From Burkholderia cepacia ATCC 25416 (GTDB lineage: Bacteria; Pseudomonadota; Gammaproteobacteria; Burkholderiales; Burkholderiaceae), in the NCBI RefSeq assembly GCF_001411495.1, contig NZ_CP012981.1:620001-684000 (forward strand): 64,000 nt of DNA. The letters run 5' to 3'. The notes under the pieces are model-generated. The model saw nothing but the letters and a program-made list of their open reading frames with translations. It made no database searches and had not been told where the DNA came from. Within the stretch, counting starts at the first letter, position 1, and the number at the start of each line of letters is the position of its first letter. Position numbers and translations under genes: made by a program. This document shows positions 31,281-52,525 of this stretch, one piece after another.

Positions 31281-31293
31281 CGCTTTGATCCCT

Positions 31294-31580
31294 AGGGTCT
31301 GTTCGCGTATGAAACGCGCATGCGTTGCCACGAGAAGGGCCGCTCGCGAGGCGCGCGACGCTGCGAATACTGGACGTATTCGCAAGGAGCGCAACGCGGC
31401 GAGCGGCCCTTCTCGTGGCAACCCCAAATTAAAAGATTCATTCCACGGGAATGCCCGAAATCGCCCGCATGGCGGCGTCGCTCGTCGCTTGTTTGGCTCG
31501 GCCAAACGGCGCTCCTCACTTCTTGCCCTGCGAGCGATTTCGGGCATTCGCATGTGCGTTTCATACGCGAACAGACCCTA
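31294..31580. repeat. Composite palindromic element A (MITE-like) between flgK and flgL
   Basis: A 287-base element that fills the flgK-flgL gap. Outer inverted repeats of 32 bp (31294-31325 and 31549-31580; one mismatch) begin TAGGGTCTGTTCGCG. Inside is a perfect 24-bp stem (31324-31347 with 31399-31422) around a smaller hairpin GCGAATAC-tggac-GTATTCGC (31363-31383). A second perfect 16-bp stem (31449-31464 with 31534-31549) encloses GTTTGGC-tcg-GCCAAAC (31491-31507). No coding frame is credible. Element B at 52291-52522 has the same layout. It resembles a MITE or large intergenic repeat; flgL must be transcribed through it or from inside it. Confidence 0.85.
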
Positions 31581-52276: not shown

Positions 52277-52290
52277 GGTCGGGACCTCTA

Positions 52291-52522
52291 AGGGGCTGTT
52301 CACGCTAATAACGGGCTTGCGCTGGCCCCCAGAAGGGCCGAGCGCAAGGATTGCGACGAAACGAATACTCGACGTATTCGCGAGGAGCATGACGCGGCGA
52401 TCGGCCCTTCCGGGGGTCAGCCCCACGCATGATTTTTTTCCAAACAGGCGAACGTGCCTTGCCGGCCGCATTGCGGCCGGCAAGGCACGTTCGCAAGCCC
52501 GTTATTAGCGTGAACAGCCCCT
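52291..52522. repeat. Composite palindromic element B (MITE-like) beside the NDUFA9-like gene
   Basis: A 232-base element with perfect 31-bp outer inverted repeats (52291-52321 and 52492-52522) beginning AGGGGCTGTTCACG. Inside are 24-base arms (52322-52345 with 52397-52420; three mismatches) around CGAATAC-tcgac-GTATTCG, then a 23-bp perfect hairpin with minimal loop (52448-52494) overlapping the right outer repeat by three bases. Layout and part of the sequence (GGG.CTGTTC.CG ends, GAAGGGCCG arm, GAATAC/GTATTC core) match element A at 31294-31580, while the remaining arm sequences differ. Frames crossing it are shadows. Confidence 0.85.
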
Positions 52523-52525
52523 TGA

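Follow-up and report, generated by a model that had tools for sequence, protein, structure and literature searches.

A two-branched palindromic element of Burkholderia, its paired stem changes and a candidate IS5-family mobiliser

What is the palindrome that lies between an epimerase-family gene (PF01370; 51320-52276, minus strand) and a lytic transglycosylase gene (PF01464; 52568-54517, minus strand) of Burkholderia cepacia ATCC 25416, what moves it, and what keeps its arms complementary while their sequence changes? The palindrome, element B1, occupies 52290-52523 (plus strand, 234 bp) of the window, which is the whole stretch of 64,000 nucleotides that was analysed; the two neighbouring genes are of one direction, and the ATG of the first lies 13 bp from B1. 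A preliminary description had set B1 beside a second palindrome of the window, element A1, as copies of one possibly mobile family with diverged arms that still pair. The answer that I favour, with moderate confidence, is that B1 is a short non-coding palindrome which an IS5-family (DDE) transposase moves in trans, and that polymerase template switching between its two arms keeps them complementary.

Two palindromes of one family

B1 has the layout described for it, with outer arms that are slightly longer than was first noted (31 bp, 52291-52522): the left arm (52290-52321, plus strand) and its partner on the right (52492-52523, minus strand) are 32 bp long and 100% complementary, and the end GGGGCTGTTCACG starts at 52292. 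Branch 1 (52321-52421, plus strand) is a hairpin with a 25-nt stem, 88% paired, whose arms are 52321-52345 and 52397-52421. Sequence and family comparison place two conserved repeats in this branch, CAAGGATTGCGACGAA (52345-52360, plus strand) and CGAGGAGCATGACGCGGCGA (52381-52400, plus strand), and between them lies the apical hairpin GAATAC-N5-GTATTC (52363-52379, plus strand). Branch 2 (52448-52494, plus strand) has collapsed to a perfect hairpin, the 23-bp arms of which (52448-52470 and 52472-52494) are fully paired. B1 is only 234 bp long because this second hairpin has lost about 55 bp relative to B2 and B3, two other B-type copies of the genome with a length of 289 bp. At one stem position B2 and B3 have a mismatch where B1 has a pair, and a template switch at the hairpin would give both the collapse and the repaired mismatch.

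Element A1 (31293-31580, plus strand, 288 bp) is a full A-type copy, with a FlgK gene on one side and a flagellin-domain gene on the other, and like B1 it sits between genes of one direction. Its left outer arm (31293-31324, plus strand) pairs with the right one (31549-31580, minus strand) perfectly over 25 bp, or over 32 bp with one G.T; branch 1 (31324-31422, plus strand) has a 24-bp perfect stem with its apex at 31365-31381, and branch 2 (31449-31549, plus strand) a 16-bp perfect stem with a conserved tip. The ends GGGGCTGTTCACG / GGGTCTGTTCGCG and the motif GAAGGGCCG are common to A and B, as had been proposed. The second hairpins, which had been called unrelated, do differ in the stem below the tip, but the tip itself, TTGTTTGGC..GCCAAACGGCGCTCCTCACTCCTTGC, is shared by A with B2 and B3 and was lost in B1. 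At up to one mismatch, the apical core pattern occurs at two places in the window against 0.04 expected, and folding as single-stranded DNA gave z = -16.2 for B and -15.7 for A, with 0 of 200 shuffles as good in either case. The predicted fold of the element is a Y, in which two hairpin branches of about 100 nt each stand on an outer palindrome of about 32 bp, and the standard copy is about 284-289 bp long.

DNA searches of the genome found one repeat family with common ends and two subfamilies, comprising seven full copies: four of A type (C1:184951, C1:651293, C1:1297485 and C1:2846988) and three of B type (C1:672290, C1:1293728 and C3:28094). The same searches found a half copy (C2:1961604) and two 37-nt remnants (C2:2877769 and C2:1935937), each of them the left arm as far as a GGCCC, a sequence with which the element also closes, as deletion between short direct repeats would leave it. 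The end pattern occurs at 22 places in this genome (control 5), 14 of which belong to the seven elements and two to the remnants, the other six being single. By eye, the frame directly before the remnant at C2:2877769 (L073, about 2001-2037) reads like a class A beta-lactamase. A REP-like short palindrome of the GTCCCCCAAGGGGACTTCC type is found in the branch 2 tip at four loci (L066 and L070, which are the copies at C1:184951 and 2846988, L128 and L190), and the copy at C1:2846988 has a GTCCCCCAAGGGGACTTCC-type palindrome in both arms, inverted, as if copied from arm to arm. In an A-type copy of 218 bp (L133), branch 1 contains an additional small hairpin and branch 2 is reduced in length.

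A covariance model of branch 1, built from 18 sequences, matched in 53 of the 61 genomes of the genus, the genus-wide search that had been proposed for these palindromes. With seven copies in one genome, this breadth and no Rfam family at gathering score in five loci, they are neither a pair found nowhere else nor, as far as Rfam goes, part of a catalogued family. A pattern scan of genome contigs added copies in named Burkholderia and Paraburkholderia, among at least 120 matching stretches, many of which are unrelated; plasmid records contain copies in Caballeronia and a partial match in Cupriavidus, and the core pattern had no matches in viral contigs.

Nor is the element confined to Burkholderia, as its first description would have it. 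Of 369 genomes sampled from the class, 14 matched the branch 1 model, the present genome included. Ten of the other 13 contain two-branched elements (by eye), one (G413, locus L307) a single-module element of 161 bp with arms paired at 20/24 and TA on both sides, and two neither; the matches in these last two (G159 and G191) were rejected as family members since the layout is absent. In elements of other genomes of the class the hairpin core recurs under different ends. An element was also found on an Azotobacter chroococcum plasmid, with relatives on a Pseudomonas aeruginosa and a Halomonas record. The ends and second branch of the Azotobacter element are Burkholderia-like and its core reads CAAGGCG..AACGC, a combination that joins Burkholderia with the other groups. 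An outer palindrome was computed in 12 of 15 loci, the misses being two at contig edges and the single-module L307, and a two-branch fold was predicted for 9 of the 10 element types tested. These two-branch types have an outer arm of 29-35 bp, a branch 1 of 94-101 nt and a branch 2 of 91-101 nt. In 6 of the 9, branch 2 resembles an inverted branch 1 more closely than any of 300 shuffles does; by the same test this kinship is absent in Burkholderia A, Burkholderia B and L310.

How the arms stay matched

Pairing was followed in 121 different intact copies (63 A and 58 B, 180-339 bp), all with ends and arms that the extractor recognised. Of 7881 cells in the main stems, 7815 are Watson-Crick; the count excludes one pair of the A type in which G.T is widespread (23 copies), and the tip of branch 2 in B, where pairing is poor. 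Among the 69 pairs of A and the 71 of B, 22 and 16 respectively occur as at least two Watson-Crick types, each in at least two copies. Pairing is thus kept while sequence changes, as the preliminary description stated, and its two suggested causes were a selected structure and repair or gene conversion in palindromes. The mismatch, switch and orthologous-site data fit the second better, not decisively.

Selection on an RNA, such as an mRNA-processing or regulatory hairpin inside operons, would make the paired changes ordinary compensatory evolution. It would suit the stable fold of A and B, the place of A1 and B1 between genes of one direction, and the report that Correia elements are RNase III substrates (PMC2649163, PMC10969869). 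It would also suit the standing mismatches in that most of these are G.T or A.C (19 G.T, 23 A.C and 15 others), but the two kinds are equally common (p 0.64), so that the strand preference for wobble pairs looked for in tests of RNA families is absent from these stems, in a test that mixed orientation weakens. Among 40 elements between tandem genes, 16 have the same and 24 the opposite orientation (rough gene call); such a mixture itself speaks against RNA selection, and because of it the balance of G.T and A.C alone is weak evidence against selection on either strand. The two-sided switches comprise 36 transitions and 29 transversions (29/65), against 126 and 135 in unpaired columns (p 0.33), and the transversion switches are held by 139 copies while their one-sided intermediates are held by 6. 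For transition switches the figures are 133 copies and 50, 24 of the latter at one pair. The equality of G.T and A.C together with the lack of a transition excess in two-sided switches favours arm-to-arm copying over RNA selection. Rfam had no family at gathering score for any of the five loci tested; nine matches on B at E <= 1 were discarded, all being below gathering score and mostly microRNA models on a plain hairpin. I regard RNA selection as unlikely, and it is still the best placed of the rival accounts.

One feature of the stems holds back a firmer statement. The standing mismatches are transition-type in 42 cases and not in 15, unlike the unpaired columns (p 0.0007) and unlike the two-sided switches (p 0.04). 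Repair or selection might remove the other mispairs more quickly, and tolerance of some mispairs, or selection against them, may therefore play a part. It is because of this lean and the mixed orientation that I place the combined explanation, IS5-type transposition with template switching, no higher than moderate confidence.

Copies at the same insertion site bear on where the pairing arises. The 18 groups of such copies comprise 1214 pairs, of which 28 have changed on both sides of a stem and 35 hold a mismatch. Pairing therefore comes back at the site itself, unless both arms were converted together by another copy, which could be an alternative to template switching. At three sites, that of B1 among them, the interior lies in opposite orientation in different species. 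Both the homogenisation of arms and the inversion of a spacer have been reported as results of template switching (PMC8604942; PMC8794818), and I infer that template switching, and not selection on the fold, would lie behind the complementary arms, the flipped interiors and the collapsed second hairpin of B1.

Insertion sites and the candidate transposase

The element has TA on both sides at 66 of 115 distinct sites. The consensus over 115 distinct left flanks is C-TA/GGG..CCC/TA-G, and 32 sites have CTA..TAG. Occupancy was read from 30 loci per site, with 17 filled and 13 empty for B1 and 2 filled and 28 empty for A1; empty sites occur in other species. A target duplication at the empty sites, which had been named as a point to check, is borne out in part. 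At the A-type copy A4, TA is present in 5/5 empty alleles and on both sides of the element, a clear duplication; it is likely at remnant S2 (CTAG in 5/5 empty alleles) and at A3 (TA in 2/5). At A1, A2, B1, B2 and remnant S1 the junction has no clear TA duplication, the filled alleles being about 2-10 bases short of the empty ones, so that the duplication is clear at one of eight sites only. The flanks of B3 had no match among the matches listed for 41 genomes. The empty A1 and A2 sites (L227-L254 and L255-L273) have a junction CCGAA / CCGGA or TTCGA in nearly all relatives, and the filled alleles are without these bases.

A transposase flanked by the same ends, also suggested earlier as something to look for, was found elsewhere and not at home: by the exact end pattern, the present genome has no end pair at IS spacing that could mark an autonomous copy. 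An end query from the Azotobacter element led to IS5-family ISs of Aeromonas caviae and Paracoccus liaowanqingii that share its ends, and similarity to 857-bp copies of such an IS in Azotobacter and Halomonas. Of these five ISs, four are flanked by CTA..TAG and the Paracoccus one by CTA..TAA, and the A. caviae IS (NZ_CP121793) reads C-TA/GGGGCTGTTGACG../TA-G. Its end agrees with that of B1 at 12/13 positions and with that of A1 at 10/13 (A1 and Paracoccus, 11/13). Azotobacter plasmid pAcX50f carries an IS (GGGGCTGTTGACGTTT) and an element (GGGTCTGTTGACGTTT) together, with 15 of their first 16 bases identical. The transposase, that of Azotobacter being WP_082045535.1, is of type NF033580, with PF13340 and PF01609. 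Of six further IS5-family loci, three have recognisable ends with TA on either side, one is truncated by the edge of its record and two lack clear ends.

End queries from Burkholderia copies returned element copies and weak matches from plasmid records, and no IS. Among the loci scanned for end pairs, five have them: four of these are one 1.1-kb pair around remnant S1, with no transposase seen there, and the fifth (L085) has its ends about 4 kb apart. Unpaired ends in three genomes (G085, G117 and G137) bordered elements or nothing recognisable, with no transposase between ends. On two Catenovulum adriaticum plasmids (L485 and L486), stretches of about 367 and 317 bp have GGGTCTGTTGAC-type ends with no transposase annotated between them, and may be a further non-autonomous family.

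Mobilisation in trans, as first proposed, is likely on the ends shared with IS5-family ISs. The transposase would act on the GGGNCTGTT ends and insert the element at TA, preferably CTAG, and the Burkholderia copies would have spread in this way. A competing source of the enzyme is the IS630 family, the element then being an IS630-derived MITE inserted with TA duplication in CTAG. IS630 transposition is reported to duplicate TA (PMC2170065), 7 of 8 named IS630 ISs read have the end C-TA/GTG../TA-G, and the elements of G085 and G117 agree with IS630 ends at 8-11/13 (G085 9-11, G117 8-9). The Burkholderia and Azotobacter element ends, however, fit IS630 at 3-8/13 only and IS5 at 10-13/13, and on this comparison IS630 was dropped as the partner in Burkholderia. 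An IS630 transposase had no match in the present genome at E <= 1e-20, and it was over cut-off in 13 of 61 genus genomes and in none of the 10 distant genomes that bear elements. I consider an IS630 mover rather doubtful, slightly more so than RNA selection.

The act of transposition might itself match the arms, through a hairpin intermediate at each move instead of repair at the site. Arms that are perfect in most copies and subfamilies that have diverged over the whole arm would both be expected then, but the two-sided differences between copies at one site would not. Neither would the first base outside the end, which is complementary to its counterpart in 115/115 distinct sites, 10 of them with a base other than A or T; this suggests that the duplicated bases, too, are subject to arm copying. 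A hairpin intermediate is accordingly improbable as the source of the matched arms. Movement of a REP-type hairpin as single-stranded DNA by a RAYT (Y1) transposase, the partner named in the preliminary description, would go with the hairpins, the mixed orientation and the REP-like palindrome inside some copies, but is very improbable, given that TA on both sides and the TA duplication at A4 misfit insertion without duplication and that DDE-type ISs have such ends; an IS5-type DDE transposase is likely the partner instead.

Comparison with known systems

The element is MITE-like and so of a known kind, with a Y-shaped design that is widely shared. It is shorter than 500 bp (180-339 bp in the 121 copies), has terminal inverted repeats, and has no gene annotated under 14 of 15 places listed, some of whose records are hardly annotated. 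Its ends are shared with an autonomous element, namely the IS5-family ISs in other genomes. A+T richness, typical of MITEs but not defining, is absent, the elements being G+C-rich. Nezha is likewise a short, non-coding bacterial MITE with terminal inverted repeats. The NF033580 ISs of A. caviae (NZ_CP121793) and Azotobacter (pAcX50f) have the same ends, GGGNCTGTTGACG, the CTAG target and TA on both sides, but are about 857 bp long, with a transposase gene and no Y-shaped palindrome. I take them to be IS427-like; one database match bears the name IS427.

MITEPsy1 of Pseudomonas syringae, which was shown to transpose in vivo, also has IS5-like ends and inserts at CTAG or YTAA, but differs in its 100 bp, its 4-bp duplication and its ends GGAAGGTCTG (PMC3189936). 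ERIC, RUP and Chunjie elements are short and non-coding with terminal inverted repeats, and several have TA ends (PMC2229807), like the present element. These three and Nezha are mostly A+T-rich, and the accounts of them that I consulted describe no fixed two-branch geometry. Literature searches brought up no earlier description of this Burkholderia element. If the IS5 reading is correct, a candidate enzyme can be named for a large class of bacterial repeats for which I found no description. The stems also provide a natural, many-copy data set of two-sided changes that apparently arose without RNA selection. Matched arm changes are usually taken as the mark of a working RNA, and covariation alone is therefore no proof of one.

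Another close parallel is with the Correia elements of Neisseria (NEMIS, CREE), which likewise have inverted end repeats with TA, and for which inversion has been reported (PMC10969869). They differ in being 104-157 bp long (PMC2649163), with one module and the ends TAGTGGATTAAA; the 26-bp Correia repeat ends (TAGTGGATTAAA..) are absent from the present element, the ends of which are different. L307 is Correia-like in size, with other ends. The Correia core, CAAGGC..(apical hairpin)..CAAG..AACGC, has the order and spacing of the non-Burkholderia elements. A pattern of this core, written after seeing them, matches 4/4 Correia copies (3 viral contigs) and 9/9 non-Burkholderia elements (8 genomes), with 0 or 1 of 4000 shuffles matching; L307, kept out when the pattern was written, matches it as well. 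The strict pattern is not found in the Burkholderia consensus, and direct alignment is weak.

A wider reading, tentative and in my estimate a little short of even, is that the hairpin module (stem, CAAGGCG-type repeat, apical hairpin, CAAG..AACGC repeat) is the selfish unit of a proteobacterial superfamily. Doubled and inverted, it would give Y elements of 270-290 bp with fixed geometry, and singly it would give elements of 100-160 bp, Correia included; it would have acquired the ends of two or more TA-inserting transposase families that are unrelated to each other (IS5 and IS630), and its stems would drift freely and stay perfect as replication rewrites one arm from the other. In 2009 the mechanism that mobilises Correia was described as not determined and the repeat as known from Neisseria only (PMC2649163). 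The Correia link stands as a lead, and a testable one.
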